A DNA stretch of 36,650 nt, from positions 1 to 36,650 of IMG/VR virus record IMGVR_UViG_3300037882_000429. One strand, given 5' to 3'. Source of the DNA: a virus. Positions within the stretch are counted from its first letter, which is position 1. Every line of letters begins with the position of its first letter. A program made the position numbers and the translations under genes. The notes beneath the pieces were generated by a model. The model was not told the DNA's origin, ran no database searches, and saw only the letters and a program-made list of their open reading frames with translations. Positions 2,143 through 36,650 of this stretch are shown here, piece after piece.

Positions 2143-3135
2143 ATGACTGACGACAGCAACGAAATCTTCGGAGACCACCCGCCCTTTGACGACTCGTTTG
2201 GACAACTGCCTCCGACCCTCGGACTTCTCTACCCTCCGGGCGAGCCCATCCAGGACATCAACGAGTTCATCGTGGCGGTTAACACCTTCACCCCGTACAC
2301 CGTCCTCGCAGGCATCGACTGCCCCGGTGAGGGTTGTCAAGTTGAGGCTAACTACCTCTTCCAGCGCCTCGAGATCCTTGTTGACGCCGAGGTCACTGAT
2401 GGCCTTCTGGTCTACCCTGGCTGGGAGAATGACTACGCCTGCCGCGAGATTGTGAAGATCGCGTACCGCGTCGGCTTCCCCGTCTACCGCTTCGGTATGA
2501 CCGAGGATGGTCCGGCGATTCTCCCGCGCATCACCGTGATCGGCATTGCCGGTTGGGCTCAGTCGGGCAAGGACACCGCCGCCCTCACCCTCGTCCAGAA
2601 CAACGACTTCTTCCGCGCCTCGTTCGCTGACGCGCTCCGTGAGGTCACCACGAAGGTTGACCCGTACATCGGTCTGCGTGCGGATGGGTCCCTCATCCGG
2701 TACAGCGAGGCTGTCATTGAGATTGGCTACGAGGAGACCAAGCGTGTCTACCCCGAGTCCCGCCAGTTCCTCCAGCGTCTCGGTACCGAAGGCGTCCGCG
2801 ACACCCTCGACCGCGATGCGTGGCCGATTGCGCTCGCTCTCAGCCTCCGCGATGGTGCTCGCGTTGTCATCCCGGATGTCCGCTTCGAGAACGAGATTGA
2901 GTTCGTTCACTACGCGGGCGGTCGAGTCTGGTGGGTCCAGCGTCCAGGCATCGATGCCCCGCCGTTCACTCACGCCTCAGAGAACTCGATCTCGGCTGAC
3001 GATTGTGACTTCACCATCGTCAACGACGGTACACTGATCGACCTCGCGCGCAAGACGTCCGAGGGCATCTACCTCGCCAACCTCAACGTCGCTGAGACCC
3101 CCGACAGCCAAGGCCCGGAGGGCTCCAATGCTTGA
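2143..3135 (+). CDS. Deoxynucleoside monophosphate kinase with N-terminal DUF4406-like domain
   Basis: This is a 330-residue two-domain protein. Residues about 20-120 resemble DUF4406 (nucleoside deoxyribosyltransferase-like Rossmann fold), with the hallmark YPGWEND (91-97) followed by a helix and VGFPVYRFG. Residues about 130-310 are a phage dNMP kinase. They carry a P-loop GWAQSGKDT (137-145), the LQRLGTEGVRD segment and VIPDVRFENE, all typical of T4 gp1-type enzymes. These phosphorylate dNMPs to dNDPs for DNA synthesis in the cytoplasm. GAAAGGA upstream of ATG 2143 is a good ribosome binding site. The fusion could sense or process modified nucleotides while feeding the dNTP pool. A metabolic gene next to the portal is unusual but occurs in actinophages. 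The kinase call is strong; the DUF4406-like call is by motif. Confidence 0.85.
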   Translation: MTDDSNEIFGDHPPFDDSFGQLPPTLGLLYPPGEPIQDINEFIVAVNTFTPYTVLAGIDCPGEGCQVEANYLFQRLEILVDAEVTDGLLVYPGWENDYACREIVKIAYRVGFPVYRFGMTEDGPAILPRITVIGIAGWAQSGKDTAALTLVQNNDFFRASFADALREVTTKVDPYIGLRADGSLIRYSEAVIEIGYEETKRVYPESRQFLQRLGTEGVRDTLDRDAWPIALALSLRDGARVVIPDVRFENEIEFVHYAGGRVWWVQRPGIDAPPFTHASENSISADDCDFTIVNDGTLIDLARKTSEGIYLANLNVAETPDSQGPEGSNA

Positions 3136-3516: not shown

Positions 3517-5121
3517 GTGGGCGTATTCAGCCGTCGTAAGCGAGAATCTGCTCTCCCGGCGAGCACTGCCACTGGTAGTCCGCGCGCGATCACAGCCGCC
3601 GCTGCCAAGGAGTCCTTCTCTAACCGCGCCAGTATTGACGAGTTCAATACGCGCACTCGTGAGAGTGTCAAGTGGCAGACAGAGGCATGGGACTACTACG
3701 ACGAGATCGGTGAGATCGCGTACGCGGTCGACCTGCTCGCCAACATCACCTCTAAGGTCTTGCTCCACGCCGCCGTTGTCCCTGAGGGGCAGAATGGCTG
3801 GCGTCCGGTTGGTGAGGTCGATGACCTCACCCCGCGCCTCGGGCAGGCTGCGGAGATGGCTCTCGAGCGTCTCCACCCCGCAGATGGCACAATTCAGGAC
3901 ATCATCCGCGATTTCGTACTAAACCTCACGGTGTCTGGCGAGTGCTACCTCGTCAGGTCCCCCGCGCTCATCGGATCCGGCACCCGCGTTTCATGGGACG
4001 TCCGCTCCATTAGCGAGATTCTCGTGTCTGGCCGGGATGCCTTCATCCTCGAAGACCCCCGCGGAATCCGCAAGACCGCGATCAACGAGAGCGCCGGTTA
4101 CTACGTCGCGCGCGTCTGGACCGCCCACCCGCGGTTCAAGTCGCTCCCCCACTCCTCGATGCGCGGTGTCCTTGACCTCTGTGCCGAACTGCAACTCATC
4201 AACACGACCTTCCGTGCAACGGCGCGTTCGCGCCTCAACGCCGGTATGCTCTTCATCCCTGACACGCTGAGCGTCTCTGGTCCCCAGGGCTACGAAGACA
4301 ACGTGGGAGACCCGGACGACGAGTACGAGTCGTTCGAGGACGAGTTGATGGACTCGATGACCACGCCCATCCAGGACGAGACCAACGCATCTGCCGTTGT
4401 TCCGCTCCTGGTGCGCGGTCCTACCGAGGCTGGCGCAGCCATCCAGTACATCAAGTTCGACCGCGTCTTTGATGAGCAGTTGAAGGAGCGCGCGGACCGA
4501 GTTCTCGAGCGCATCCTGCAGGGCATCGACCTGCCGAAGGATGTCGTCAGTGGCTTGGCGAACGTCAAGTACAGCAACGCCGTCAAGATCGATGAGAGCC
4601 TCTACAAGCAGCACATCGAGCCGCTTGTCCAGCGCATCTGTAACTCGATCACGACCGCCTACCTCCGCCCCGTGCTCGAAGCACAGGGCTTCTCGCGTGA
4701 GCAGGCCGCTCGAGTCGGTGTCTGGTTCGACCCGTCCAGCGTCATCGCCTCGCCCGACCTCACCGCGACCTCCGAGTACGCGCACGCCAACTACCTCATC
4801 TCGGATGAGGCATGGTTGCACTACAACGGGTTCGACCCGGCTGACGCTCCCGATCCCGAGGAAGTCGCGCGTCGTGTCGCCTTCGCCAAGGGTCAGGTCT
4901 TGCCTGAGTACCTTGACAAGGTTCTGCAGACGTACGCGCCTAAGCAGACGGCAGCCGTTCAGGAAGCAGCCGCCGAGGAGAGCCCAGGAACTGCCCTTCC
5001 GCCTGAGATCATCCAGGCACTCGGCGGAAAGCCCTCCGACACGAGCCCGCCCGAGGCACCGCCCACCCCGACACCGCCAGCGCCCGAGACACCCGCACCG
5101 ACCGAGGAGCCGACCGCCTGA
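3517..5121 (+). CDS. Portal protein
   Basis: This is a 534-residue protein with the layout of a siphophage portal, the dodecameric ring at the capsid vertex through which DNA is packaged and ejected and to which the neck binds. Seen: an N-terminal helical part followed by AYAVDLLANITSKVLLHA, the segment VSGECYLVRSP, a central wing region, long clip/stem helices (about residues 310-375), LPKDVVSGLANVKYSNAVKIDE, and a Pro/Glu-rich disordered tail (about 480-534). Size is normal for the family. GTG 3517 is chosen because AAGGGG lies upstream and no better start exists. Its stop overlaps the next ATG (TGATG). Large structural and protease genes follow immediately, as expected. Confidence 0.88.
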   Translation: MGVFSRRKRESALPASTATGSPRAITAAAAKESFSNRASIDEFNTRTRESVKWQTEAWDYYDEIGEIAYAVDLLANITSKVLLHAAVVPEGQNGWRPVGEVDDLTPRLGQAAEMALERLHPADGTIQDIIRDFVLNLTVSGECYLVRSPALIGSGTRVSWDVRSISEILVSGRDAFILEDPRGIRKTAINESAGYYVARVWTAHPRFKSLPHSSMRGVLDLCAELQLINTTFRATARSRLNAGMLFIPDTLSVSGPQGYEDNVGDPDDEYESFEDELMDSMTTPIQDETNASAVVPLLVRGPTEAGAAIQYIKFDRVFDEQLKERADRVLERILQGIDLPKDVVSGLANVKYSNAVKIDESLYKQHIEPLVQRICNSITTAYLRPVLEAQGFSREQAARVGVWFDPSSVIASPDLTATSEYAHANYLISDEAWLHYNGFDPADAPDPEEVARRVAFAKGQVLPEYLDKVLQTYAPKQTAAVQEAAAEESPGTALPPEIIQALGGKPSDTSPPEAPPTPTPPAPETPAPTEEPTA

Positions 5122-5504
5122 TGCTGTCTCTCGACACACCTACTGGTATCCGCGAAGCGGTCTCTCTTCTCGAGCAGGTCACGGACGTGACCGACCAAGT
5201 GCTTGCCGCGCGTCGGATGGTCTCACGTCGTGCCCGTGTTCTTCACTGCTCAAGCCTCATCCCGAGCGACTGGCGCAAGATGCCCGTCACCGCGTCGGCT
5301 GGTGCGGTTGAGTTGCCTGAGCACGAGCGTGTGATTGTGGAGAAGGCTGAGGCTTCTGGTGTCGACCCTGACATTCTTCGCCGCGCCTACTTGACAGGAG
5401 TGCGCGAGTACGCAATGCTACCCGTAGAACAACGTCCTCCGTTCACCCGAGACGCCTTTGCACAGGCGCGCGTGAACACCGAACTACGTCAGGAAGGAGT
5501 GTAA
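5121..5504 (+). CDS. Small helical protein, unknown, coupled to the portal gene
   Basis: This 127-residue, mostly helical protein has its ATG overlapping the portal stop (TGATG), so it is probably made in proportion to the portal. Residues about 9-40 form a helix with repeated hydrophobic positions and RRMVSRRAR at its end. The C-terminal half (ELPEHERVIVEKAEASGVDPDILRRAYLTGVREY) looks like a short helical domain. I do not recognise the family. Placed between the portal and the giant polyprotein it could be a connector, a chaperone, or a cargo-loading protein. No catalytic motif is seen. Confidence 0.6.
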   Translation: MLSLDTPTGIREAVSLLEQVTDVTDQVLAARRMVSRRARVLHCSSLIPSDWRKMPVTASAGAVELPEHERVIVEKAEASGVDPDILRRAYLTGVREYAMLPVEQRPPFTRDAFAQARVNTELRQEGV

Positions 5505-5506
5505 CC

Positions 5507-8500
5507 ATGCCGGAAACACATACCGGATCGATGGTTGCCTTCTTCGTGCCCGCAGACGTTGCGCGCGAGTTGGCTATCGAAGGTGGAGAGCCTGTTGAGG
5601 AACTCCACATCACGCTCGCCTACACAGGCAAGGCCGCGGATCTCACCGAGCAGCAGGTCACGGACATGCATCGTGTTGTCGCTGAGTGGGCTGCCGCGAA
5701 TCCCCCGCTCGACGCCAAGACTTCCGGCATCGGCATCTTCCAGAATGATGATGATGTCGATGGTACCGATGTCACCTACGCTTCCGTTGATGCTCCCGGT
5801 CTCCCGAGTACCCGTGAAGACCTCATCGCGCGCCTCCTCGAGGCTGGTGTCCCAGTAGACCAGACGCATGGCTACACGCCGCACATCACGCTTTTGTACC
5901 GAACGACAGACGAACTCGAAGTCCCCACCCTAAGTTTCCCACTCAGTGAGGTCTCTGTCATGGTTGCAGGTAACCGAAACGACTTCGCGCTGGAGGGCAG
6001 CCCCGCTGCCATCACAGCCGCGGGTGCCAACGCGATCGTTGATGCCCTCGGTCGAGTGTGGAAGCCATGGTTGCACCCGCGTGACCACAACGGTCGCTTC
6101 ATCAACACCTTTGGTCAGGTCAAGTTCCGCACCAAGAAGGGTGGCGAGTTCAACGACGCCTCCGGTCGTGTTGAGCGCATCAGCCCGAATGGCGACATCT
6201 GGGTCCGTATGGACAAGGCGCTCTCGCCTGACGCCAAGCAGAAGTTCGGCAAGGGTGACTTGGTCCGTGTCCCGAAGGGCGACATTGAGGTCCTCGACTC
6301 GAAGGCCCGCTTGAGCGGTGCTGGTGGCAAGGCCCGCGCGCTCAATGGTGGACAGCGTCGTCGTCTCGACAACAACATCAAGGCGCTGCGTAACGCGCGC
6401 TCTGGTGGTAACCCGATCCCAGGCGCACTCAAGGCTGCCGACTTGCTTGAGCAGGCGCGCGCTGAGTCCGACGTTCTCGAGCGTCGTCTCAAGAACCGTC
6501 GTGACCCTGACGCCACCCCTGAGAAGCGTGCCGAGAGTGCCGCGAAGATCGGTGAACTCTTCGAGCAGGCTGCCAGTGAGTTGGACACCCTCCGCGGCGA
6601 AGGTCACCAGGACGGCGACAAGTTTGTCCCCGGACAGGCAGGCGCGCTCGAGACTCTGTACGACAACGCATTCGCTACCTCGCTGAGCCTGCAGGGTCAG
6701 GTCCTCGGTGAGACGAAGGGTCGCCTGCAGAAGGGCGCGCTCGCACAGGGTCGTGGTCAGGAGCGCTCGTCGCTTCCTGGCGACACCGAACTCCCTGGTG
6801 CCGAGACGGGCGTCAACGTCTACAAGGACATCGACGGCAACGCGATCGATGACCCGATTGAGGCTGAGCGCGAGACGGTGAACAAGGCGCGTGTTAACGC
6901 GGGTCAGCCCGAACTGACCTCAGAAGAGTTTGTCCGTGACTTCGTCGCTGGTGACCGCTTGGTCAAGCCGCGCGCTGTTAACGGTCTTGACCGCCTCGGT
7001 GCTCTGTTCCGTCGTGGTAAGGGTGCTCCCGCAGACCGCCGTACCACCGACAAGGATGGTACGTCGATCCAGCCCGGATCGATCGTGCAGGTTGACGCTG
7101 GTAGTGGCCGCGGTGGTGGCGCATGGGTTCGTCCCGCCTTCACTGGTCTCGTGGTCCGCATCCACGAAGAGAAGAACGGCGCGAAGACCGCAGTTGTGCG
7201 TGACTTCCGCCCGGACCTGTTCAACACGCCTGAAGCAGACCGTGACCCGAACGTCCCGAAGGGGTACTACGAGAAGGGTTACCACGACTACACGCGTACC
7301 TCGAGTGCGTCGGTCCTGAACGTCACGCCTGAGGATGGCAACAACTTCGGTATCCTCATGGCGAACCTGCAGGGCGAGTTCGGCATCAGTTACGACGAAC
7401 TCTCCAAGGCAATGGTTGAGATTGGCGCTGAGCGCCACTACGCCGGAATGAACGCCGGTCGTCTCTCCGAACTGAGCCGTAACGGCGCGATTGCGATCAC
7501 GCTGCGCCGGAAGATCGACGGTAATGGTCGTGTCATCCAGCAGGGTGACTGGGTCTGGACCGGCGCTGCGTACGCACAGGTTGTGTACATGGAGCCGAAC
7601 ACCAACACGATTGGTGTCCAGGTTGGTGGCGAAGGCAAGATGCAGCGTCTCTCGGCGCGCAAGGTTGCGTTCGCCCACGGTGCTAGTGGTGCTGTCTTCG
7701 GTCGCAACGACCTCGACGCAATCAGTGCTGCCGGTATGTACGCACCGACGCGCGAGGAAGCGGCTGCGGTCGCTCGTCGTCGTGGCCTCGACACGATTGC
7801 TGACGCAATTGAGGGTGGCGCAACTGGTTCTGCTCTCAAGGATGCCTTCGAGAATGACCCCGCGTGGGGCGCATTCGCCGCCGAGGCAATCAACGCGCGC
7901 GGTCGCTTCTATGACCGTGCCCAGCGTGGCCTTGGTGTTGGTAGCGACGAGACGGTGAAGATCCAGGACAGCACGATCCTTGGTGCTGCTTTGAGTGACA
8001 TCTACCGTGACGGCGCTGACGTCCCGCAGCAGAACATTGACATCCCCGAGACCGAGCCGCAGATCGACGTGCCGGATGCTCCGCAGATCCCGGAGGGTAT
8101 CGAGGTGCCCGAGGGTGCCAAGGCGATCCTCAACCCGGACAGTGAGAACTCCGTCCTCGTTCGTGACGCTGACGGCAACGTCAACGAGTGGATCAAGGAC
8201 CCGGAGACGGGTGGCTGGGTCGACGCTGGAACTCCGGTGCCTGACGAAGAGCCCCTCGGCCCGATCGACAACGTGAACGAAGCCCCCGAAGGTTTCGAGC
8301 GTCGGCAGAATGGTCGTGGCCGCAAGGACACGTTCGTCTCGCCGGATGGTCGCATCACGGTCAGTGAGAACAAGCGTGGTCAGTTGGTCGTCACCGACCA
8401 GTCCGACCCGGAAGAGCCGGATGTCATCGGTGTTGCCGAAGACTGGAACGAGGCCCTCGACTTCATCGAGGAGCACTCTCCCGACTCTCTGCCTCAGGGC

Positions 8501-11500
8501 GAGTCCACGATCGAAGAGATCTACGAGACTCGTGAGGAGTCTGCTCGCGCTCGCCTCAGTGAGGTGCTTGGTACGGACGTTACCGACAAGACCCCTGACG
8601 AGATCACGGACACCGACGAGTTCGCTGACGCTTCGACTGGTGAGGCCTACCCGCAGATCGCATTCGACCTCAACGAGATCGCTGCCGCGAACGACCTCAA
8701 GGAGCAGGGCATTATCGAAGAGGGCTCACTGCCCTCTGAGGCCCCTGTTGACGTTGTCGAGCCGGAAGCCGTCGAGGCTCCTGCTGCCCCGGAGACGCCC
8801 GAAGCACCTGCCGAGGCCGGTGGCTTGGGTCAGAACATCATCGACGCTCTGTGGGGCGTCTCTGAGCGCATGAAGGCCGATCAGCGCATCCCCGACGCTG
8901 TCGTGGACGCTGTCGCCAACGAGATCTTCCGTATGGAGGATGCTCTCGAGTCTGGAGACACCGACGCATTCGAGTCGGCGGTCGGTCAGATCATCCGCAA
9001 CCCGGGTGTTCCCGAGCCGATCCGCCGCGGCCTGGGTGGTCAACTCCAGGACTTCAAGCGTAACGGTGGTCTCCAGGAGGTCAACACTCCTGGTGCTGCT
9101 GCCGAGACTCCTGCTGGTGCCTTCGATGATCAGGCTGGTCCCATCGACTACGCCCGTATCGAGGTTCCCGGGGGCGTCAACCACGTTGCTGACATCCCCG
9201 CGTTCATCGAGTCCTTCATGGACAACTTCGGTGACTGGCTGAACAACCGGATCGAGACGGACAAGGTTGGCGACCGCTTCTGGACGACCGAGAAGCAGCG
9301 CACGCGTAACGCCGACACGATCAAGGCGCTGCAGGAGGTCCACAAGCAGGTCAAGACCGCGCTTGAGGACCCGGAACTCGCAGATGAGGACCGGGAGGCG
9401 TCCATCGAGGCTGCCCTGACCCGTCTCAAGAACATCGCGGGAGTTCGCGGCGAGGGTGCTGGTATCTACAGTGGCCTGATCCAGAGCCTGATCGACCGTA
9501 ACCGCAACGGTTACGACCTTCGCGGTACCTCGGAGAACCTCGCCGGACAGGACATCGCTGACGCGCTGCTTGACGACCCGATCTACGAACTCGCCGTCTC
9601 TGGTGAGGTCGAGCCGGGTGGTTACGCTGTGGTCGATGGTGAGGGTGAGCCTGTTGATACTGGTTACGTTGCTGAGTACCCGGAATCGCGCCTCGTTGTT
9701 AACGGTGGCCTGAGTCAGGAAGACTTCAACGACTACTGGGACAACGTGGTCGTGCCCCTCTTCAACGAAGACGAGAGTGCTGCGTTCTTGTTCACGACCG
9801 ACGAGGAGGGCAACACTGTCCTCACGGTCGGCACGTGGACCGAGGATGAGGCCACCGCCAGTGAGGTTGCTGCCGGTAACGGTGACGCCTACTACGACGG
9901 TGGTTCGGGCAACTGGGTTGACCCCAACGCCACGTCTGCCTTCCCGGAGGAAGACCCGCGGATCCAGGACATCATTGATCAGGTCCAGGACAACCGACAG
10001 GCAGCACGTACGCCTGAGGAGAGCGACGAGTACCAGGAAGTCATCCTCGCGCTCGAGGATCTGGCTGAGGCACTCAAGACCGGGGACCGCGACGCGATCA
10101 ACGAGGCCGCTGGGAACCTTACCGAAGGACCGGATGGATCGATCCTCGGTGACATCACCGACCTCCAGCGCGAGTACATGCGCCCGGAAGACTGGGACCC
10201 CAACGCGAACCCGGACGACACTGAGCCGGAAGCCGAGCCTGAGGGCGATGAAGGTCCCGATGGTGGTGGAGGCGGCGGCGGAGACACCGAAGGCCCGAGT
10301 GGCGGGGGCGGTGCAGCGCCGGGTTTTAGCCAGGAGAAGACAGATGCCGTCGCCACAATCCGTGCCAGCGGAGAGCCCGTCTACGTTGTTGAGGAGACGA
10401 ACGACGACTTCCTCCTGCGTGAACTTGGGGACGTCACTGTCACCCCGAGCGCTGTCTACGCGCCCAACCCCGTGCACAAGGATGCCTTCGAGCAGGGTGA
10501 CATCTCGCCCGCGACGTTCGTTGAACTGAACGGAACGGACACGGCGGTCTTCCACGACGCTGTTGGCAAGGGCAAGGACCGTAAGTTCGGCTCCTCTGTC
10601 ACGCAGTACGACTCCCCGGCTGACTACGAGGGCTACCGGATGTTCCTCTCGGAGGATGGCGGCTCTGGTTTCGCTGTCTCTCCTGACGGCGACATCGTTT
10701 CTGCCTTCTCGAACGGTCAGGGTCTCAACTCGGGCGCTGGTGACGCGATCCTGCAGTTGGCAATCCAGCAGGGTGGCACGCGTCTCGATGCGTTCGACAC
10801 CGTCCTGCCCAGTATCTATTCGCGCGCCGGTTTCAAGGCGACGGGACGTACCAAGTTCAACGACGAGTTCGCTCCCGCTGACTGGAACTACGACGAGTAC
10901 AAGGCCTTCAACGATGGCCGACCCGACGTGGTGTTCATGGCGCTGGACAAGGCGAACGACACGCCGTACGCATCTGGCGACGGTGACTACTTTGACGACT
11001 ACGACGAGGCCAGCGCCAACAACAAGGCTGTCGCTGACGAACTGAATGGAGAGAGCAATGCCCCAGGTAACAGCACTGACGCGGAACGAGGGGGAGACGA
11101 CGGAGGAGTTTCGCCTTCGGGTGACGGAGACTCTGGCGGCGGCGGGTCTGTTGACGACGACGGACGCGGCGGATCTGGAGGAGGACCTGACGTAGCAGTG
11201 ATCACGCCCGAGACCCTCGATGAGGCTCTTGGTGCGGAACTGGCTGCGCGGTCCGCAGAGATCACCGACATCGACCTCGGTGACCCTGTCGAGCCCCTTC
11301 TTATTGCTCCGAAGAAGATCTTCGCCCCCGGTGGTATCAACCTCGATGGCAATAACCGTACGACCCCGACGCTCGAGATCACTGAGCGGCTGAACGATAT
11401 TGATCCGGCAGAGATTAGGGCTGTCTGGGACATCTTCGATGAGAAGACGCTCAGTCGAGTCGAAGAGTTTAGTAGGACTGCCAGCGCACAGTTCCGACGT

Positions 11501-13081
11501 ATGGTTAACTCCTACAAGTCGGACACGTACTACGAGCAGAACCCCCAGCGGTCGTACCACGGCACGATGGAGATGATCGGTACAGCGCTGACGCTGGACA
11601 ACTTGCAGCAGGGCCGCATCCTCTCGGAAGAACAGCGTGTCGCCCTCTACGACGTCTACAACAAGGTGGCAACCGGCTCAGTCGAGACCCCCACGCCGCT
11701 CCCTGATGTGGTGCAGACCGCCGTCGACAAGTTCCGTGGCGAGGTCACACAACTAGGCTGGGACTCTGAACCTGAGGCCTTCACTTCGATTACCGACTTC
11801 GTTCGTACCCATGTTGACCCGACCCTGTTGATGATGGAGTCCCTGGGCGACAGCGATCTCTCCGCGGCTTTCGCTCTGTCGTATGTGGCGGACATTGGGA
11901 AGCAGTTGGTCAATTACAGTACCTCCTACTTCGGTAAGAAGGGGGACATGACTGTTGCTTTCCAGAAGGCGATTGATGAGTTCGTTGAGACTGTCGGATC
12001 CACGGTGGATGTCCGAGTTAAGCCCTTCGCCCCGAAGGCGTATGAGGGTGACGAGTCCATCGGTCTTGCTGAGACCGCCAACGGCGAGGTCTCACTGGCC
12101 TCTGTCGCTGGCTACCTTCTGAACGAATCGGGCGTCGACCTTTCCGACCCTGAGGCTGTCCGTAAGTTCGTTGGCACCAACGGAATCAACCTCCAGGATG
12201 GGCTCTCTATTGACCCCATCGCACGACAGGTTGGTGCTGGTATCAACGGTGACTACACGTTCCTTGTTCGGGCTGAGGGTACTGGTCAGCAGTTCGTTCT
12301 CAAGTACGACCACCCTGACCAGACGTATGCTGAGATTGCGGCACCGCGTCTCATGCGCGCAGCGGGTACGTACACCCCAACTGTTCAGCCTCTGGCTAAC
12401 ATGGATGGCGTCCGCGGAGATGCTGGGGGTAAGTTCCCCTTCCTCCAGACGTGGGCTGGTGTTGACGACGGCCTTGACACACTCGGTCAGGCTGACGAAA
12501 TCTTTGCCGAGCACCTGAGTTCTTGGCCGTCCATTAGCCCGACCGGGCTGGAAGCCACAGACGAGAACAAGGCGCGGGCTACCGAAGCGCTGCGTCTCCT
12601 GTGGAGCAACATCTCTGCTCTCCGCTCCGACGCTCACGGTGGTAACGTCATCCTGGCGAAGGACGGGGACACCCTCGCCTTCGTTGGTATTGACAACGGA
12701 TTCGCTGCCAAGGGCCCCGTCTTTGACGTGGCAGGCGCGATCCGTCGTGGTGACTACCTCAACACCCACTACGGTACGTGGGCGATGGAGTTCATCGACG
12801 CAAACCCCGACCTCCAGGGGGAGTACAAGAAGACCCTAGGCCAGTGGGCCGAAGGATTGCGCGACTGGTATGCTGCCAACAAGGACGTCCCCCTGTCCCA
12901 GGGTGGTCTCAAGGGCGCGAGCCAGAGGTACGTGAACTACACGAACTATCTCGATGTGCTCACCGGGCTTGACAACGACGCAATCTGGGATACACTGCGG
13001 GGAGTGGTGTCTCCTTACGATTACCAGGAGCCCGAGACCTACAACTTCTTCACCCTACGCGAAACGGAGGTTCTCTCATGA
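5507..13081 (+). CDS. 2,524-residue multidomain virion protein: 2H phosphoesterase, GNAT-like and PI3/4-kinase-like domains
   Basis: Domains in order. Residues 1-165: 2H phosphoesterase (LigT/Acb1-like) with two HxT motifs, H34-T36 (ELHITLAY) and H126-T128 (YTPHITLLY). Residues 190-198: HPRDHNGRF, an RDxxGRF motif, followed by an SH3-like beta segment (200-265). Residues 270-840: charged helices and further beta modules. Residues 840-1590: very acidic, low-complexity linkers alternating with helices. Residues about 1606-1815: GNAT-like domain between Gly-rich linkers, with LDAFDTVLPSIYSRAGF. Residues about 1830-1900: second Gly/Asp linker. Residues about 2236-2510: kinase-like fold with glycine loop GAGINGDY, K2266, E2276, catalytic SDAHGGN (D2375, N2380) and GIDNGF (D2396). 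The gene directly follows the portal-coupled gene (AGGAAGGAG before ATG 5507) and ends by ATGA overlap. The location suggests a structural or ejected protein; enzyme activities are inferred. It may be cut by the phage protease. Confidence 0.85.
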   Translation: MPETHTGSMVAFFVPADVARELAIEGGEPVEELHITLAYTGKAADLTEQQVTDMHRVVAEWAAANPPLDAKTSGIGIFQNDDDVDGTDVTYASVDAPGLPSTREDLIARLLEAGVPVDQTHGYTPHITLLYRTTDELEVPTLSFPLSEVSVMVAGNRNDFALEGSPAAITAAGANAIVDALGRVWKPWLHPRDHNGRFINTFGQVKFRTKKGGEFNDASGRVERISPNGDIWVRMDKALSPDAKQKFGKGDLVRVPKGDIEVLDSKARLSGAGGKARALNGGQRRRLDNNIKALRNARSGGNPIPGALKAADLLEQARAESDVLERRLKNRRDPDATPEKRAESAAKIGELFEQAASELDTLRGEGHQDGDKFVPGQAGALETLYDNAFATSLSLQGQVLGETKGRLQKGALAQGRGQERSSLPGDTELPGAETGVNVYKDIDGNAIDDPIEAERETVNKARVNAGQPELTSEEFVRDFVAGDRLVKPRAVNGLDRLGALFRRGKGAPADRRTTDKDGTSIQPGSIVQVDAGSGRGGGAWVRPAFTGLVVRIHEEKNGAKTAVVRDFRPDLFNTPEADRDPNVPKGYYEKGYHDYTRTSSASVLNVTPEDGNNFGILMANLQGEFGISYDELSKAMVEIGAERHYAGMNAGRLSELSRNGAIAITLRRKIDGNGRVIQQGDWVWTGAAYAQVVYMEPNTNTIGVQVGGEGKMQRLSARKVAFAHGASGAVFGRNDLDAISAAGMYAPTREEAAAVARRRGLDTIADAIEGGATGSALKDAFENDPAWGAFAAEAINARGRFYDRAQRGLGVGSDETVKIQDSTILGAALSDIYRDGADVPQQNIDIPETEPQIDVPDAPQIPEGIEVPEGAKAILNPDSENSVLVRDADGNVNEWIKDPETGGWVDAGTPVPDEEPLGPIDNVNEAPEGFERRQNGRGRKDTFVSPDGRITVSENKRGQLVVTDQSDPEEPDVIGVAEDWNEALDFIEEHSPDSLPQGESTIEEIYETREESARARLSEVLGTDVTDKTPDEITDTDEFADASTGEAYPQIAFDLNEIAAANDLKEQGIIEEGSLPSEAPVDVVEPEAVEAPAAPETPEAPAEAGGLGQNIIDALWGVSERMKADQRIPDAVVDAVANEIFRMEDALESGDTDAFESAVGQIIRNPGVPEPIRRGLGGQLQDFKRNGGLQEVNTPGAAAETPAGAFDDQAGPIDYARIEVPGGVNHVADIPAFIESFMDNFGDWLNNRIETDKVGDRFWTTEKQRTRNADTIKALQEVHKQVKTALEDPELADEDREASIEAALTRLKNIAGVRGEGAGIYSGLIQSLIDRNRNGYDLRGTSENLAGQDIADALLDDPIYELAVSGEVEPGGYAVVDGEGEPVDTGYVAEYPESRLVVNGGLSQEDFNDYWDNVVVPLFNEDESAAFLFTTDEEGNTVLTVGTWTEDEATASEVAAGNGDAYYDGGSGNWVDPNATSAFPEEDPRIQDIIDQVQDNRQAARTPEESDEYQEVILALEDLAEALKTGDRDAINEAAGNLTEGPDGSILGDITDLQREYMRPEDWDPNANPDDTEPEAEPEGDEGPDGGGGGGGDTEGPSGGGGAAPGFSQEKTDAVATIRASGEPVYVVEETNDDFLLRELGDVTVTPSAVYAPNPVHKDAFEQGDISPATFVELNGTDTAVFHDAVGKGKDRKFGSSVTQYDSPADYEGYRMFLSEDGGSGFAVSPDGDIVSAFSNGQGLNSGAGDAILQLAIQQGGTRLDAFDTVLPSIYSRAGFKATGRTKFNDEFAPADWNYDEYKAFNDGRPDVVFMALDKANDTPYASGDGDYFDDYDEASANNKAVADELNGESNAPGNSTDAERGGDDGGVSPSGDGDSGGGGSVDDDGRGGSGGGPDVAVITPETLDEALGAELAARSAEITDIDLGDPVEPLLIAPKKIFAPGGINLDGNNRTTPTLEITERLNDIDPAEIRAVWDIFDEKTLSRVEEFSRTASAQFRRMVNSYKSDTYYEQNPQRSYHGTMEMIGTALTLDNLQQGRILSEEQRVALYDVYNKVATGSVETPTPLPDVVQTAVDKFRGEVTQLGWDSEPEAFTSITDFVRTHVDPTLLMMESLGDSDLSAAFALSYVADIGKQLVNYSTSYFGKKGDMTVAFQKAIDEFVETVGSTVDVRVKPFAPKAYEGDESIGLAETANGEVSLASVAGYLLNESGVDLSDPEAVRKFVGTNGINLQDGLSIDPIARQVGAGINGDYTFLVRAEGTGQQFVLKYDHPDQTYAEIAAPRLMRAAGTYTPTVQPLANMDGVRGDAGGKFPFLQTWAGVDDGLDTLGQADEIFAEHLSSWPSISPTGLEATDENKARATEALRLLWSNISALRSDAHGGNVILAKDGDTLAFVGIDNGFAAKGPVFDVAGAIRRGDYLNTHYGTWAMEFIDANPDLQGEYKKTLGQWAEGLRDWYAANKDVPLSQGGLKGASQRYVNYTNYLDVLTGLDNDAIWDTLRGVVSPYDYQEPETYNFFTLRETEVLS

Positions 13082-13362
13082 TTCAGTACACGGTTTACTC
13101 GAACCGCCCCGGCGCGGGGCCCACGGCTGCGGCCATGACAGACGGCACCCGGCTCTTCACTGCCGGGATCGACCTGTCCAAGATCTCTACCTACGAGGCT
13201 GCTCATCTGCGTGAGGGCCTCGCCCAGGGCCGACACGACGTGATCCTCACGACCGCTGGGGCTGGGCGTCCTGTCCACACCCCCCGGCAGGTCGAAGAGG
13301 ACGACGACCAGTGGGATGACCTCACAGTGATGCTTGGTCACCTCATTAGCGACACGCTGTAA
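13078..13362 (+). CDS. Small protein of unknown function, coupled to the polyprotein gene
   Basis: This 94-residue protein has its ATG overlapping the stop of the giant gene (ATGA), so the two are probably translated together. It has an N-terminal beta-like part (IQYTVYSNRPG), a middle helix (YEAAHLREGLAQGRHD) and an acidic patch EEDDDQWDD near the C-terminus. No known domain is recognised. A tightly coupled small partner could be an inhibitor or chaperone keeping the kinase-like or phosphoesterase parts inactive in the producing cell, but there is no direct sign of this. Coding status is supported by the overlap and codon use. Confidence 0.55.
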   Translation: MIQYTVYSNRPGAGPTAAAMTDGTRLFTAGIDLSKISTYEAAHLREGLAQGRHDVILTTAGAGRPVHTPRQVEEDDDQWDDLTVMLGHLISDTL

Positions 13363-13450: not shown

Positions 13451-16400
13451 ATGCAGTATCTAGGCCGAACGGGTGACTGGGCCGCTTACGAGCGCGCTGG
13501 TCTCACCGTCTTTGTGAATGTCATCACGCTCGACGTGACTGACCCGCTCGAGGGTGCCCTCGTCGCTGCTGGCGACACCCCCGAGTACACGCAGCATCCC
13601 GAGATCGACAGCGTAGAGATCACCGCACGAGAGGCCTTCATCGGCCCGTCGGTGTTCGCGGACGCGGGACCTGGAGACGAGCGCCTCGTTTCGGTTCCGC
13701 GAGGCGTGCGCGTTGCCGCATCTCGGGCCCTCCAGTGGCACCGCATCTACAGCCGCGGTGGTAACGACGCTGCGCTCGCAACTGCCAAGTTGCTCTCGAG
13801 TCATGACAAGGTGAGCGTCCAGCGCCTCCGCAAGATTTCGCGCTCGCTCCCACAGGCGAGTGACTTCGGTGATAACGAGGGTTGGAAGGCCGGTCAGACT
13901 GGCTTCCCCAGTGCCAACCGCATCACCTGGGACCTGTTTGGTGGTGACGATGGTGCTCGCTGGGTCAACTCGCAGATCCGTCGAGCCGACCGCCGTACCC
14001 TCATCGCCTCTGTGGCCTTCGCTGAAGAAGACATCCCGCTGGACGAGGCTGTCGAGACTGACTCTGCACCGGGTAACGAGCCCCACGCGTACCACCCGAG
14101 CGTCGAGCAGCCGAATGCGTGTATGTTCTGCCTCAACAGCCCGGACAACGAGATCCATGATGACGCCGCCGTTGACTACCTCGCGGCGGAGGTCAATCCT
14201 CAGTGGGCTCACCTCTTCGACGCCAGCGCTGTTGACGAGGAACTGTGCCGCATCTGTGAAGGTGACGAGACCGTGTGGCAGCACGTCCACGCTGCAGCCG
14301 CACAGTCCATCCTTCGTCCGACCTCGTTTGAGTTCCACAGTGGCCTCCTGCAGGACCCGGTTGAGTTGACTCCGGTCACCGCCACCGCACTGCCGGACGC
14401 GGACCGTATGGCTGCCATTACGGCTGCCGTAAGCGCCCGTGTTGCGAGCGCACTTCACGCTGACACGGACTACTACGTCACGATCGACTCCGCGGACTCG
14501 ATGCTGGCGACTGGTCTGTTCCAGCAGACCAAGGGTGAGTGGTACGAGTGGAACGCACTCAGCACCACGTGGCTCAAGTCGCAGCCCGCAGGCCCTGTCT
14601 ACCTCGTGGACGTTGACTACGACACCGCCGAGTTCGTCCTGCAGGGTCTGCAGGAGTTCACTGGTGGCGTCGACCTTCGTCTTGCCGACCCGGAAGAGTA
14701 CGCACTGCACGACTCGTGCCTCAGCGACCTCGATTGGGAGTTCATCGACACCCTCTTGAGTTCACGTCCTGAGGTCGCAATCGTTGCGGCTGGTGCTGAC
14801 GCGGATTACACTCCTGAGGAGCGCGCGGAGAACGCGAGCAAGCAGGTTCGTGACCGCAATGGACGCTTCGCCAAGACCGGCACCCAGATTTACCTGCCGG
14901 ACGGCACCCCCGCGAAGGTCTCGAAGATTCACCCGGACACGGGCGAACTGACAGCCATCTCGGACATCGACGGTACTGAGACGCGGATCAAGGCCGATGA
15001 GGTTGAGGTTCGTCAGGTCCAGTTGCCGACGCGCATTGACCTCGACAAGATCCGCGCGATCCCGCGCGCAACTCGCATTACGCCGAAGGCGTGGGCGAAG
15101 AATCTGTTGCCACCGCTCAATTCTGACGCGCTCAAGCGGATCTTTGAGGACTACGCCAAGTTCATCGATGATGAACTGGGGCAGGTCGTCAAGCCGCTCA
15201 ACGCTGCTGCTGGTGAGGCTGTCGAGACGCAGGGCGTCATGGTCTACGACTCGATCGAAGACCTTGGTGTGCCGCCGATCTACATGGCGCTGGTCGATAA
15301 GGACGACCACGAGGCAATCCTCGACATGGTCGCCATCATCCCCGCAACCAAGGAGGGTGGCACGGTCCAGACCGTTCGCCGCACCGACCTTGGGTGGGAG
15401 ATCGACCCCACGATCAAGGACGAGTTGCTGAGCAGCGTTCCCCCGCCCGTGGTTGCCCTCCAGGGTGATCAGGTTGCGGAGGTCGAGGCACAGGTCACCG
15501 AGTGGTACAGTGCGAATGCTAGTGCTGACCCTGGAGAGGCCTCGCTCTACGACCTGTTCGGTAACCTGACCGCGGCTGGCGGCTCCGACCGCAATCGCGG
15601 CGGTGCTGAGGAGTTGCGTCGCTACTGGCTCAGTGGTAAGGGTGCAGCGAAGATTCGCTGGAACACCCCTGGTGACTGGAAGCGCTGCTACAGCCTGCTC
15701 TCGAAGTACATGGGCCCGCGCGCTAAGGGCTACTGCTCGCTGCGACACAAGGAAGCGACAGGGTCGTGGCCGGGTAGCAAGAACAACATCGGTAACCGCA
15801 AGCGGTTCTCGAACACGAGCCAGTTCTTCACGGCTGGTGACCTCTTCGACCTGAACACGGTTGACGATGTGCTCACGCTCGTTGCGAGTGCTGCCAGTTT
15901 CTCTGACGAGTACATCCCGGAGATCGCATCCGAGGTGGACCCGGAGGCTGGCGGTCTCCCGTTCCTGATTCCGATTGTCGCCCCGGTGAACATCGAGTCG
16001 GGCGACGGTCGGGTCATTCACCCGATGGCCCTGTCCTACCGTGACCTCCCGCTGCCGCTCATGTGGCAGATCAAGACGGGTGCCGGTCACGACGGTGCAG
16101 TGGTCGTCGGACGCATCGACAGCATCGATGTCCTCCCCAGTGGTGGGCTCGGTAATGCTCGTGGTGTCTTCGACATCAACCCGTACGCACGTGAAGCACA
16201 GCGCATGGTGGAGCATGGATTCCTCCGCGGCGTCTCTGTCGATCTCGACAAGTTCCGGGCTGTGAGTAAAATGGATCCGTCGGAGTCTGCCATCGATGGT
16301 GAGACGCGGATCTCGAACGACCGGACCGAGATCGAAGAGGGTCGGGTCATGGGTATCACGATCGTGCCCAAGCCCGCCTTCCAAGAGTGCCACATTCAGA

Positions 16401-18133
16401 TCGACACGACTACCGCAATTGACGATGGAGAGGTGCCCCTCGTGGCAGACGGAACATACGCCGGTCTCCCGGATAGCAAGGATGAGGCTGAAGCGCTAGT
16501 CGCGGCTGCCCTGATTGCTGCCGGTATTCCGGTGAACCCCCCGAGTTCGTGGTTCACAAACCCGCAACTCCGCAAGCCCACCCCGCTGACGGTGAGCGAC
16601 GACGGTCGTGTCTTCGGACACGTCGCAACGTGGCGAACGGACCACATCGGTCTCCCCTTCGCAACCAAGCCGCCGCGCTCTCGCAGCAACTACGCCTACT
16701 TCCACACAGGCACCCTGCACGCCGATGATGGTGACCTGATCCCTGTTGGTCAGATCACTCTCGCTGGCGGGCACGCACCCCTTAACCTTGACGCCGCGTC
16801 TGCTGCCGCTCACTACGACAACACCCGCAGCGCGTGGTGTGACGTTCACGCTGGTGAAGACGAGTTCGGTATCTGGGTCGCTGGTGCTCTCCGTCCGTCG
16901 GTGACCCCGGAGAACGTGCGCGCGATCCGTGCCTCGGCACCTTCTGGTGACTGGCGTCCGATCAGCGGTCGTCTCGAGATGGTCGCGGTTTGCTCCGTGA
17001 ACGTACCGGGCTTCCCGGTTACTCAGGCGACTGTCGCCTCTGGCGCTCTGGTCTCTCTCGTTGCTGCTGGCACCGTCGACTTGCTCGAGGCCCGCAAGAG
17101 CAGCACCGTCGATGGTCTGGACGCACTGGCCGCTCGCATCGAGCGTCTCGAAGCACCTCAGCGTGCGCGTCTCGAGTCCCTCCGTGAGGCCGCTCTTGAC
17201 CGCCGCGCAGAGACTGTCCGCGATCGGTTCAGCCGTCTGGCTGCAGCCACCACCGCGGAGAGCGTCGCATTCGCAACGCAGGAGAGCCCTGAGGGCGCAA
17301 CGGATGGTTCGGCTCTGCCGGATGGTACGTTCCGCATCCAGAGTCTTGATGACCTGACGCTGGCAATTCGTGCCTTCGGTCAGGCCGCAGACAAGTCGGT
17401 GGCTAAGGCTCACATCATTCAGCGCGCTGTCGCGCTGGGTGAGACTGCAGCCCTCCCGCCCGTGTGGCATGAAGTTGCTCTGACCGCCTCTGCTGCCCTG
17501 GCAAAGGGCCGACTGAGTGCGCTGGGTGCCCGGACTCTCTCTGAGCGTGCTGCAGAGGTCCAGGCGCGTATGTCGTCATTCGCTAAGGCGGACGACTTCG
17601 ACCCAAAACGCCACCCCCGAGATGAGCACGGCAAGTTCCGCGGGGTCCTTGCTCGTCTCAAGACGGATCTGAGCGAAGTCGTTGAGGGTGACGAAGAGGC
17701 CGAGAAGGAGAAGGCTCGAAAGATCCAGGAGGTTGAGGAGATCGAGGGCAACCTGACTGGTGGCGACTTGGACGCCGCCAAGATTGCCGGTGCTCGTCTC
17801 CTGCACAACCTGGACCTGACCGACACCGAGATTGGTGATGCTCGTCTTGCTGAGCGTCTCCGCGATGACTACACCCTCCTGGGTGACGTCGTCTACAACA
17901 TCGGAGTGCCTGTCGGTGCTGACGATGCTCTCCGGTACTCGGAACTCCCGCCCGTCCTGCAGACCCTGATCGAAGACCTCGTCGCCAAGATCGAGGCCCA
18001 GGAGCCCGCGGACGAAAAGGGCGAAACGGCCAAGGCTGTGCTGGACCTCAAGTCCTACATCAGCGGCGACGACCAGTTGAAGCAGAACGAGATTTCTGCC
18101 GCTTTGTCGAAGTTGGTCCGTCTGCTGGTCTGA
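13451..18133 (+). CDS. 1,560-residue polyprotein with HK97-type (S78-like) head maturation protease
   Basis: Residues 85-175 match a domain frequent in phage polyproteins (SRALQWHRIYSRGGND, then FPSANRITWDLFGGDDGARW). Residues 224-280 hold C224xxC227 and C266xxC269 with H278 and H280, a possible zinc site. RDRNGRF occurs at 467-473, followed by a small beta domain. Residues 720-785 are a conserved phage module (EELRRYWLSGKGAAKIRW to RAKGYCSLRHKEATG). Residues about 825-1000 look like the capsid protease: GHDGAVVVGRID (H880), HGFLRGVSVDLD (S929) and GITIVPKPAF, a His-Ser arrangement as in family S78. Residues about 1045-1210 are a second module typical of actinophage maturation proteases (VNVPGFPVTQ at its end). 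A coiled coil (about 1220-1260) and RHPRDEHGKF (about 1387-1396) precede a helical tail. AGGAG precedes ATG 13451. It probably processes the capsid precursor and perhaps the polyproteins. Confidence 0.8.
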   Translation: MQYLGRTGDWAAYERAGLTVFVNVITLDVTDPLEGALVAAGDTPEYTQHPEIDSVEITAREAFIGPSVFADAGPGDERLVSVPRGVRVAASRALQWHRIYSRGGNDAALATAKLLSSHDKVSVQRLRKISRSLPQASDFGDNEGWKAGQTGFPSANRITWDLFGGDDGARWVNSQIRRADRRTLIASVAFAEEDIPLDEAVETDSAPGNEPHAYHPSVEQPNACMFCLNSPDNEIHDDAAVDYLAAEVNPQWAHLFDASAVDEELCRICEGDETVWQHVHAAAAQSILRPTSFEFHSGLLQDPVELTPVTATALPDADRMAAITAAVSARVASALHADTDYYVTIDSADSMLATGLFQQTKGEWYEWNALSTTWLKSQPAGPVYLVDVDYDTAEFVLQGLQEFTGGVDLRLADPEEYALHDSCLSDLDWEFIDTLLSSRPEVAIVAAGADADYTPEERAENASKQVRDRNGRFAKTGTQIYLPDGTPAKVSKIHPDTGELTAISDIDGTETRIKADEVEVRQVQLPTRIDLDKIRAIPRATRITPKAWAKNLLPPLNSDALKRIFEDYAKFIDDELGQVVKPLNAAAGEAVETQGVMVYDSIEDLGVPPIYMALVDKDDHEAILDMVAIIPATKEGGTVQTVRRTDLGWEIDPTIKDELLSSVPPPVVALQGDQVAEVEAQVTEWYSANASADPGEASLYDLFGNLTAAGGSDRNRGGAEELRRYWLSGKGAAKIRWNTPGDWKRCYSLLSKYMGPRAKGYCSLRHKEATGSWPGSKNNIGNRKRFSNTSQFFTAGDLFDLNTVDDVLTLVASAASFSDEYIPEIASEVDPEAGGLPFLIPIVAPVNIESGDGRVIHPMALSYRDLPLPLMWQIKTGAGHDGAVVVGRIDSIDVLPSGGLGNARGVFDINPYAREAQRMVEHGFLRGVSVDLDKFRAVSKMDPSESAIDGETRISNDRTEIEEGRVMGITIVPKPAFQECHIQIDTTTAIDDGEVPLVADGTYAGLPDSKDEAEALVAAALIAAGIPVNPPSSWFTNPQLRKPTPLTVSDDGRVFGHVATWRTDHIGLPFATKPPRSRSNYAYFHTGTLHADDGDLIPVGQITLAGGHAPLNLDAASAAAHYDNTRSAWCDVHAGEDEFGIWVAGALRPSVTPENVRAIRASAPSGDWRPISGRLEMVAVCSVNVPGFPVTQATVASGALVSLVAAGTVDLLEARKSSTVDGLDALAARIERLEAPQRARLESLREAALDRRAETVRDRFSRLAAATTAESVAFATQESPEGATDGSALPDGTFRIQSLDDLTLAIRAFGQAADKSVAKAHIIQRAVALGETAALPPVWHEVALTASAALAKGRLSALGARTLSERAAEVQARMSSFAKADDFDPKRHPRDEHGKFRGVLARLKTDLSEVVEGDEEAEKEKARKIQEVEEIEGNLTGGDLDAAKIAGARLLHNLDLTDTEIGDARLAERLRDDYTLLGDVVYNIGVPVGADDALRYSELPPVLQTLIEDLVAKIEAQEPADEKGETAKAVLDLKSYISGDDQLKQNEISAALSKLVRLLV

Positions 18134-18236: not shown

Positions 18237-18318
18237 CCTGCCTACGTCGCAAGATCTACACCCCGAGCGTGCCTATTCGGTGGCGTGATCTCTGCGCCCT
18301 CATATGTAGGCAGGAAGG
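18237..18318 (+). promoter_or_regulatory. Capsid gene leader: long-range stem touching the ribosome binding site
   Basis: CCTGCCTAC at 18237-18245 is the exact reverse complement of GTAGGCAGG at 18306-18314, which runs into the capsid ribosome binding site AGGAAGG (18312-18318). The stem can be extended by a G-T and a T-A pair (18246-18247 with 18304-18305). Folding would partly hide the ribosome binding site, so capsid translation could be tuned by leader structure. Seen: the complementarity. Inferred: the regulation. Confidence 0.4.
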
Positions 18319-18329
18319 TACCCGATCCC

Positions 18330-20384
18330 ATGGACGAGATCAAGTCTTTGCTTGACAGGCTTGCGAGCCTGAACGAGCAAGAGATGAGCGATCTCGAAGC
18401 CAAGATCCTCTCCGAGTACGAGACCGTTGAGTCTCAGGAGCACACCCCCGATAGCGTGGACTCTATGTTCGCGCTGGCCGATGCACTTGAGGCCGTACGG
18501 ACTGAGCAGTCGAATCGAGTGGCTGCGGCCAAGGAACTCGAGTCGCGCGCCGCTGAGGCGGCTGCTCGAATCCGTGGCCCCCAGGACGCTGCGGACGACA
18601 CGGAGGAAGCGCTCGAGGAAGAGGTTGGCGACGAGGTCCAGACTACTGAGCCCGTTGAGACTACTGAGGAGGAGAAGGAGGAGGACGAAGAAGTAGTCGT
18701 CCCCGCCACAGCATCGACTGATGAAGTCGCTGTTGAGGAATCCACTGCAGGAGACAACACCCCCGGGGACGTCGCTGAGGCTTCGGCTGATGACGCGGCG
18801 ACCGATGAGGAGGTCGGGGGCTCGGAGAACGACACGGTAGATGCCACCACCGCTTCGACTGACACCCCCGAGGCTGCGGAAGCCGCAACCGAAGAGACTG
18901 CAGCCACTGAGGCCGCTGTCGAGGATGCTGCAGAAGCAAGCACCGAAACGCCCGCCGAGGCCGAGGCTTCGATCGAGGAAGACACCGAGACGACCCCCGC
19001 TGAACCTGTCACGGCAAGTGCTGACGACAGTACCGCAACCGCAACCGACTCTCAGGAGGAGACCCCGATGACTGCTTCGGGTTCCGACGAGATCCGTAAC
19101 GACGACGCGGCTCTTTCTCGCCCCGAGAGCCACGCGCCTGTCGCATCGGATGTGAACCTCGTCACCATCACCGCTGGAGCCGACATTCCGGGCATCTCTG
19201 CCGGTTCGACGCTCCCCGACATGAAGGCTGTAGCCTCGTCCTTCACCAAGCGCCTTGACACGATCCGTCGTGTCTCTGGTGGCGACGGTGAGCAGCACGT
19301 GGTTGCCTCCTTCCAGACCTCGCTGCCCGAGGACCGCATTCTTGGTGCTGACCGCTCCAAGAACGTGGACCTGATCAACGCGGCGCTCGCCCCGACGGCC
19401 TTGACGGCTGCCGGTGTTTGTGCCCCGATCGAAGCCTATTACGAGGTCCCTGGCCTCGGCGTTGTGGACCGCCCGGTTCGCTCCGCGCTCGTGGGCTTCG
19501 GTGCTGATCGTGGCGGCATCCGGTTCGTCCCGGCCCCGGCCCTGACGTCCTTCATTAGCGAGAGCAACGCGGCTGCAACCGCGGTTGGTCTCTGGGACGG
19601 CGAGACCGGCGACCGCAAGGGTGGCCTCGGCACGGGTGTCAAGCCCTGCCTCGTGGTCGACTGTGGTACCGAAGACAGCGTGTACGTTGACGCTGTCACC
19701 GCGTGCCTCGTGTTCGACAACATGAACGCCCGCGCGCACCCCGAGATGGTCGCGCAGAACAACGAACTCGCGCTCGTTGCTCACGCCCGCCTCGCAGAAC
19801 TGACGCTCCTCCGAGCGATCAAGGCTGCGGGTACGGCACGCACCGCCTCGGCGGCAACCACGCCAGCGGCTGTCGGCTTCGCCCGCCAGTTCCTGTTCGA
19901 CGTGGAGATCACCGCGGCCCGTTACCGTCAGACGCATCGTCTGTCTGACTCGACGTCGCTGCGCGCGATCATCCCGACCTGGGTCAAGGCTGCTATTCGT
20001 TCGGATCTGGTCTTCCAGGCTCCGGGTGACTACACCTTCGACAAGGCTGACAACGAGATCGAGACCTTCTTCTCGAAGCGCAACATCTCGGTTGGCTGGT
20101 CGCTCGAGTCGCTGACCGCCTTCGGTTCTACGGGCCAGGGTCGCTTCCCGACCACGGTCGAGTGGGACCTCTTCGCTGAGGGCACGTTCCTCTTCGTTGA
20201 TGGTGGCAACCTCGACCTCGGTATCATCCGTGACTCCTCACTCGTTGAGACGAACGCCTACAAGCAGTTCGTTGAGACCTTCGAGGCCGTCGCCAAGATC
20301 GGTACCGAGTCGATCCACGTCACCTCGCCGGTTGCTCTGACGGGTGCCGCTGCGGCGTTCGTTGATACCGACACCGTCGTCTGA
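18330..20384 (+). CDS. Major capsid protein with N-terminal scaffold-like domain
   Basis: This is a 684-residue protein. Residues 1-85 are helical (MDEIKSLLDRLASLNEQE...). Residues about 86-250 are an extremely acidic Ala/Glu/Thr/Asp low-complexity stretch. From about 270 a globular HK97-fold capsid protein follows (INAALAPTALTAAGVCAPIEAYY, then DRPVRSALVGFGADRGGIRF, and a C-terminal part ending FVDTDTVV). The N-terminal part is expected to act as a scaffold (delta) domain removed by the maturation protease encoded just upstream; the cut site is not visible by eye. ATG 18330 is preferred over GTG 18285 because AGGAAGG lies upstream of it, though the spacing is rather long. An internal ATG at 19068 has a stronger ribosome binding site. 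Confidence 0.85.
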   Translation: MDEIKSLLDRLASLNEQEMSDLEAKILSEYETVESQEHTPDSVDSMFALADALEAVRTEQSNRVAAAKELESRAAEAAARIRGPQDAADDTEEALEEEVGDEVQTTEPVETTEEEKEEDEEVVVPATASTDEVAVEESTAGDNTPGDVAEASADDAATDEEVGGSENDTVDATTASTDTPEAAEAATEETAATEAAVEDAAEASTETPAEAEASIEEDTETTPAEPVTASADDSTATATDSQEETPMTASGSDEIRNDDAALSRPESHAPVASDVNLVTITAGADIPGISAGSTLPDMKAVASSFTKRLDTIRRVSGGDGEQHVVASFQTSLPEDRILGADRSKNVDLINAALAPTALTAAGVCAPIEAYYEVPGLGVVDRPVRSALVGFGADRGGIRFVPAPALTSFISESNAAATAVGLWDGETGDRKGGLGTGVKPCLVVDCGTEDSVYVDAVTACLVFDNMNARAHPEMVAQNNELALVAHARLAELTLLRAIKAAGTARTASAATTPAAVGFARQFLFDVEITAARYRQTHRLSDSTSLRAIIPTWVKAAIRSDLVFQAPGDYTFDKADNEIETFFSKRNISVGWSLESLTAFGSTGQGRFPTTVEWDLFAEGTFLFVDGGNLDLGIIRDSSLVETNAYKQFVETFEAVAKIGTESIHVTSPVALTGAAAAFVDTDTVV
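19054..19070 (+). promoter_or_regulatory. Internal ribosome binding site and start within the capsid gene
   Basis: AGGAGGAG at 19054-19061 is a near-perfect Shine-Dalgarno sequence 8 bases before an in-frame ATG at 19068. Starting there would give a 438-residue capsid protein without the helical and acidic N-terminal domain. The bases also encode Gln-Glu-Glu-Thr, so the match may be a by-product of the acidic composition. The placement exactly at the boundary between scaffold-like and capsid parts is what makes it notable. Confidence 0.4.
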
Positions 20385-36529: not shown

Positions 36530-36650
36530 ATGGCGGTGTCTGAGACCGGTAATCACATCGCGGTCGCCAACGTACTCGTTGACGTCCCGACCGAGACCGG
36601 TGATCACATCGCGGTCGCCAACGTACTCGTTGACGTCCCGACCGAGACCG
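36530..36650 (+). CDS. Start of a repeat-containing tail protein (3' part outside window)
   Basis: ATG 36530 follows the previous stop by one base. The 40 visible codons encode MAVS and then 17-residue units of the form ETG[ND]HIAVANVLVDVPT, repeated twice with the third unit started at the edge. The alternating hydrophobic pattern suggests one or two beta strands per unit, as in fibres. The start choice is by position only; no clear ribosome binding site is seen, so it may depend on coupling. Function beyond a probable fibre or tip protein cannot be told. Confidence 0.6.
   Translation, partial: MAVSETGNHIAVANVLVDVPTETGDHIAVANVLVDVPTET
36542..36650 (+). repeat. 51-base tandem repeat at the start of the last gene
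   Basis: Units at 36542-36592 and 36593-36643 differ only by A versus G at the tenth base; a third begins at 36644. The unit is 51 bases, 17 codons. The near identity, including synonymous positions, shows recent expansion or repeated conversion, in contrast to the old protein-level repeats in the tape measure. The array continues outside the window. Confidence 0.95.

Follow-up and report, generated by a model that had tools for sequence, protein, structure and literature searches.

A giant protein with 2H phosphoesterase and GNAT domains in the portal-to-protease region of an actinobacteriophage-type virus: a candidate polyvalent head cargo

The IMG/VR record IMGVR_UViG_3300037882_000429 encodes, in a phage of the actinobacteriophage type, a giant protein of 2,524 residues that combines in one chain a 2H phosphoesterase domain and a GNAT domain, occupies a slot shared with related phages, and has a sequence module and a short motif in common with other head-region proteins. 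We infer its packaging, cleavage, ejection and activities, and consider it rather likely that the giant is a polyvalent cargo protein which would be packed into the head, cleaved by the head protease and sent into the host along with the DNA. The whole stretch of DNA analysed, hereafter the window, is 36,650 bases long and is probably a genome fragment, the genomes of its closest portal relatives being about 103-194 kb.

The original prediction had described one uninterrupted frame with long acidic and glycine linkers, and both are seen. The gene (Table 1) is a single stop-free frame with a Shine-Dalgarno sequence, AGGAAGGAG, 7 bases upstream of its ATG, GC by codon position is steady over its whole length, and the linkers are evident in the translation. 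As judged by PHROG matches and neighbourhood, it adjoins the virion genes of a phage of the portal/terminase type. The portal and the protease, given at first as its direct neighbours, do lie in the same region, but two small ORFs, of 127 and 94 aa, intervene. The full-length protein, used as a query against IMG/VR, had zero matches; the SPP1-type portal profile was unmatched in the window; and weak Pfam matches of the giant to CATASP, DUF7547 and PipA were set aside as chance. Close upstream of the portal, at 2143-3135, is a deoxynucleoside monophosphate kinase (PHROG) with about 125 aa of extra N-terminal part. At the other end of the record, positions 36542-36650 hold a 51-base unit repeated 2.1 times with 98% identity, which may be genuine or may mark an assembly end.

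Table 1. Features of the giant gene and its neighbours; positions are those of the window, aa those of the giant.
Feature	Position	Strand	Basis
Portal protein, ITAAA near N-terminus	3517..5121	+	phrog_776, E=6e-95
127-aa ORF with one VTASA motif, between portal and giant gene	5121..5504	+	ORF list, motif scan
Giant multi-domain protein, 2,524 aa	5507..13081	+	Frame, codon-position GC, Shine-Dalgarno
2H phosphoesterase domain, aa ~5-160, in propeptide position	5519..5986	+	Pfam, PHROG, PDB 5h7e
Predicted head-protease site ITAAG, aa 169-173	6011..6025	+	Motif analysis
RDxxGRF and predicted SH3-like module, aa 183-271 (RDHNGRF 192-198)	6053..6319	+	Relatives' profile, E=3e-10
Possible weaker site ISAAG, aa 739-743	7721..7735	+	Motif, weak; same variant in Pump84 and Cece70
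Acidic, proline-rich linker, aa ~860-1100	8084..8806	+	Translation
Gly-rich acidic linker, aa ~1575-1610	10229..10336	+	Translation
GNAT fold domain, aa ~1640-1825 (phrog_2563)	10424..10981	+	PHROG, AlphaFold, PDB structure matches
Putative kinase-like C-terminal domain, aa ~2245-2450	12239..12856	+	Motifs only
94-aa ORF between giant and protease polyprotein, no Pfam or PHROG family match	13078..13362	+	
Head maturation protease polyprotein, 1,560 aa; 8 putative sites, 2 RDxxG[RK]F motifs	13451..18133	+	
Major capsid protein, acidic N-terminal extension bearing putative sites	18285..20384	+	phrog_777, E=6e-73

The order portal, small ORF, giant, small ORF, protease and major capsid protein is common to the window and to Pumpernickel, Cece and Zooman, and it recurs with gene splits in Atuin, Racecar, DSL-LC01 and Gordonia phages. 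Between portal and protease, 10 actinophages with related portals encode large proteins whose content varies, many of the compared relatives not being independent of each other. The slot protein has a UvrD helicase and an ART in Atuin (gp71) and an ART in Mareelih (gp79), and Sixama gp75 is annotated as an ART; the C-terminus of Pumpernickel gp82 weakly matches PI3/4-kinase, the slot protein of DSL-LC01 has a weak ATP-cone match only, and that of Cece no PHROG match. Like the giant, Pumpernickel gp82, Cece gp68, Zooman gp70, Atuin gp71 and Racecar gp78 fill this same slot, with an N-terminal RDxxGRW module as the counterpart of its RDxxGRF module. Unlike the giant, these five have the motif within their first ~30 residues and no enzyme at the N-terminus, and their cargo domains are different.

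The N-terminal domain of the giant is a 2H phosphoesterase, as first proposed, an identity established by profile match together with two HxT/S motifs. Two Pfam profiles match above cut-off (2_5_RNA_ligase2, E=2e-11; LigT_PEase, E=2e-6), and both HxT motifs are kept, as HIT at aa 34-36 and aa 126-128. Its PHROG matches are RNA ligase families, and its best PDB sequence match is 5h7e, an RNA 2',3'-cyclic phosphodiesterase (E=7e-6). Orf10 of Gordonia phage GMA2 is likewise a post-portal protein with a 2H domain, set off there by VTAAA (aa 713). In Orf10 the domain stands at the C-terminus, behind a part read by eye as ART-like, and has a weak Acb1 match (E=8e-4, below cut-off), whereas the Acb1 profile of Pfam was unmatched by the giant among matches listed up to E=1. 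ITAAG behind the 2H domain of the giant and VTAAA beside that of GMA2 point to release of the domain by the protease.

Both belong to a motif, [LIMV][TV]A[ASG][AG], which on the simplest reading is probably the recognition site of the head protease, and which could be a binding motif instead of a cleavage site. Across 12 loci, 125 copies fall in head-region proteins, where shuffled sequences give 7.6 (16-fold; reversed motif, 3), and 13 in non-head proteins, where they give 8.8 (reversed motif, 10); these copies are not independent, since the loci are related, and one locus (L014) contributes little because the simple gene caller retained a single head-region protein there. Counted for the window by itself, the motif occurs 14 times in the head region, against 0.95, and 4 times outside it, against 1.45. 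The form [LIMV][TV]A[AS][AG] lies near the portal N-terminus, after a variable leader, in all relatives but Atuin (LTSSA), and capsid proteins have the site motif both within the acidic extension and where the conserved part begins. The copies in the protease polyprotein compare with 0.5 expected; several of them sit where a region ends that Gordonia relatives encode as a gene of its own. Seven relatives have the site, or a form differing from it by one letter (LVAVG, LTAAF), 16-20 residues before RDxxGR[FW] and within the first 20 residues, and in the giant ITAAG is 23 residues before RDxxGRF, with the 2H domain in front. The chance of a site within the 32 aa preceding RDxxGR[FW] is 0.003-0.017; only this placement is unusual, one match being unremarkable for the composition and length of the giant (p=0.22). 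The suggestion that the neighbouring protease processes the giant gains support from this head-specific motif.

The RDxxGRF motif that had been noted is indeed present, within a module whose SH3-like fold is predicted. A profile of the RDxxGR[FW]/SH3-like module, built from 12 relatives' proteins with the window left out, matched just two of 26 window proteins, namely the giant (E=3e-10) and the protease polyprotein (E=1.5e-6). The giant is thus tied to the head by a module common to the protease polyprotein and by the head-enriched site motif. A scan of IMG/VR for the tag HPRDxxGRF gave at least 115 distinct instances; among the matches listed, 106 of 115 are read in frame within an ORF of 120 aa or more, frequently close to the beginning of a very large protein. 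Among these matches, the tag is on the portal strand in all 36 records with a portal match, and within 8 kb downstream of the portal in 31 of the 36 (null mean 4.0, maximum 13), a count that took in portal matches below the Pfam cut-off. After two large families were collapsed by hand, it lay downstream of the portal in 13 of 18 against 2.2 expected, again among the matches listed. The SPP1-type portal profile had one weak match in the listed HPRDxxGRF records. The LTAA-type site precedes 3 of the 106 listed tags, with 1.6 expected, and seems therefore to be confined to the relatives of the window. A limited literature search found no published name for the RDxxGRF motif.

The GNAT-like domain of the original prediction is upheld by structural modelling. 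With a 17-sequence alignment, AlphaFold returned a model with a pLDDT of 83.7, a pTM of 0.79 and the strand-helix order of GNATs, all of whose top PDB matches are GNAT enzymes (probability ~1.0, TM-scores 0.4-0.5); as modelled, the region is a GNAT fold. The top match in BFVD (viral) is named large polyvalent protein associated, and some other BFVD matches belong to Pseudomonas phages such as LKD16 and MPK6. Relatives of the module are encoded at 26 IMG/VR loci. It lies C-terminal to the minor capsid protein (VG15 domain) of Microbacterium phage Caron and at the C-terminus of that of the archaeal virus vir075 (L163, 3900-5552), and in Limnohabitans phage DC33 it is found alongside LPD22 and ART-PolyVal in a protein of 3,125 aa. 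The gene for the module directly follows the portal at one locus (L024) and is separated from it by one 161-aa ORF at another (L031); at two more (L016 and L019) an RDExGRW motif stands ~45 residues ahead of the module. These fusions, the conserved slot and the shared head module favour the proposal that the giant is a packaged head protein. DC33 (L005, 1993-11370) is recorded as Inoviridae despite its 39 kb and its polyvalent protein, a doubtful classification.

The C-terminal kinase domain fared less well. The expected residues are placed as in kinases, namely K2266 (VLK), E2276, D2375/H2377/N2380 (DAHGGN) and D2396 (IDNG), and on these motifs a kinase-like domain is putative. The region has no match in Pfam or by sequence in PDB, searches of IMG/VR and GTDB genomes found no relatives of it, and its single-sequence model has a pLDDT of 34.5. 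Structure prediction, which had been put forward as a check on each module, thus bears out the GNAT domain and leaves the kinase-like domain putative. The alignment with the corresponding region of Pumpernickel gp82 is not significant (E=0.44), and that region, used as a query, found no relatives either. A weak similarity to Mycobacterium phage portals (E=0.2) was rejected as chance.

Several enzymes in one structural-region gene had been taken for an undescribed device. That view is not supported, since polyvalent proteins, the packaged proteins of T4 and SPN3US, and Acb1 are precedents that make the class a known one. The polyvalent proteins of phages in Iyer et al. 2017 (PMC5512222) carry 2H, GNAT and kinase domains and are encoded close to virion genes; their packaging and injection were predicted by inference, and a role in degrading nucleotide signals, or as RNases, was suggested for the 2H domains. 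The giant resembles them in being very large, in lying beside virion genes and in its 2H, GNAT and (by motif only) kinase-like parts. It joins two effector-type domains, the 2H and the GNAT fold, in one large polypeptide, and it shares domains with the class, as seen in the company of the GNAT module in DC33 and in the name of the top BFVD match. It differs from them in having the 2H domain before a predicted protease site and in its RDxxGRF/SH3-like module. A Pfam search found no LPD domain in the giant, such domains being common in the class and not required, and no metallopeptidase domain was found in it.

T4 Alt, the T4 internal proteins and the SPN3US ejection proteins are packaged in the head, cut from a propeptide by the prohead protease and ejected; giant-phage propeptides can exceed 100 residues, and those of T4 internal proteins leave the capsid (PMC5694885). 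The likeness of the giant, from a phage known by sequence alone, to these proteins implies no sequence relation, and the giant is unlike them in that an enzyme domain occupies the propeptide position. With Acb1, a phage-borne 2H enzyme acting against CBASS (PMC9117128), the N-terminal domain has in common the 2H phosphoesterase fold, the HxT/HxT catalytic motifs and its carriage by a phage; it differs in its unmatched Acb1 profile and in its nearest PDB entry, the RNA phosphodiesterase noted above. The Rac acetyltransferase of phiKMV-like phages (PMC7552054) is a phage GNAT too, any relation being by fold only, and is a small separate protein, unlike the GNAT domain of the giant. From a limited literature search, neither a phosphoesterase in propeptide position nor the paired site/tag module appears to have been described.

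If the giant is head cargo, it would be expressed along with the late genes, and its RDxxGRF/SH3-like module would carry it into the prohead. Two genes downstream lies the gene for the head maturation protease, which would cut the giant at ITAAG, freeing the 2H phosphoesterase as an enzyme of ~18 kDa and leaving a chain of ~2,350 residues that bears the kinase-like domain as well as the GNAT fold. Every piece would exit with the DNA on infection; against this, the 2H domain, once freed, could be lost, given the exit of internal-protein propeptides from the T4 capsid (PMC5694885). The 2H enzyme may then remove cyclic-nucleotide alarm signals, or heal or cleave RNA ends, the GNAT may acetylate host proteins, and the kinase-like domain may phosphorylate a target.

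Alternatively, the giant could be made late and stay in the infected cell, acting in the cytoplasm on pathways of the host or of competitors, its place among head genes reflecting operon timing only. In favour of such a role, the solo proteins most closely related to the GNAT module, which belong to Streptomyces phages, have annotated positions near one end of the genome, away from the portal. We regard it as unlikely in view of the head-specific site motif, the module common to the protease polyprotein, the fusion of the GNAT module, in two viruses unrelated to each other, to a minor capsid protein, and the listed HPRDxxGRF tags downstream of portals. A structural or scaffold protein of the head, with its enzyme-like parts as vestigial spacers, would fit the long low-complexity linkers, and the 17-sequence GNAT alignment has no clear instance of the Q/RxxGxG/A acetyl-CoA loop. 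Yet that alignment has 17 invariant columns, the 2H domain retains its two HxT motifs, and the cargo content of the relatives varies, which is unexpected for a structural part; this explanation seems to us quite improbable.

The giant might also be toxin cargo of the polymorphic MuF type, directed at competing cells or phages and not at host takeover; prophage MuF toxins are reportedly among the multi-domain proteins adjacent to portals. We find this very hard to credit, as no MuF domain was found in the giant by Pfam search, no immunity gene was recognised within the window, and the domain set suits polyvalent proteins (PMC5512222).

Beyond head packaging of the giant itself, we tentatively raise a broader and more doubtful idea, in which the site motif followed by the RDxxGR[FW] module would form a cut-and-pack signal. 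The module would dock proteins into the growing head and the protease would then trim or release them; phages of the group could therefore swap cargo enzymes in one slot, and HPRDxxGRF alone may be a signal for head cargo far beyond the group. To our knowledge, the choice of enzymes packed in heads is poorly understood outside T4-like and phiKZ-like phages, and a module of this kind, if real, could account for the loading and release of such cargo. A short tag downstream of portals in many phages, and a protease motif readable in one group, would allow head cargo to be predicted from sequence, and would make it simple to test which enzymes of early counter-defence or takeover enter together with the DNA. 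The 2H domain in propeptide position is in itself a specific, testable prediction.

Six copies of HPRDxxGRF, in at least five ORFs and all on the portal strand, are present on one 25.6-kb IMG/VR contig (L076 and L084).
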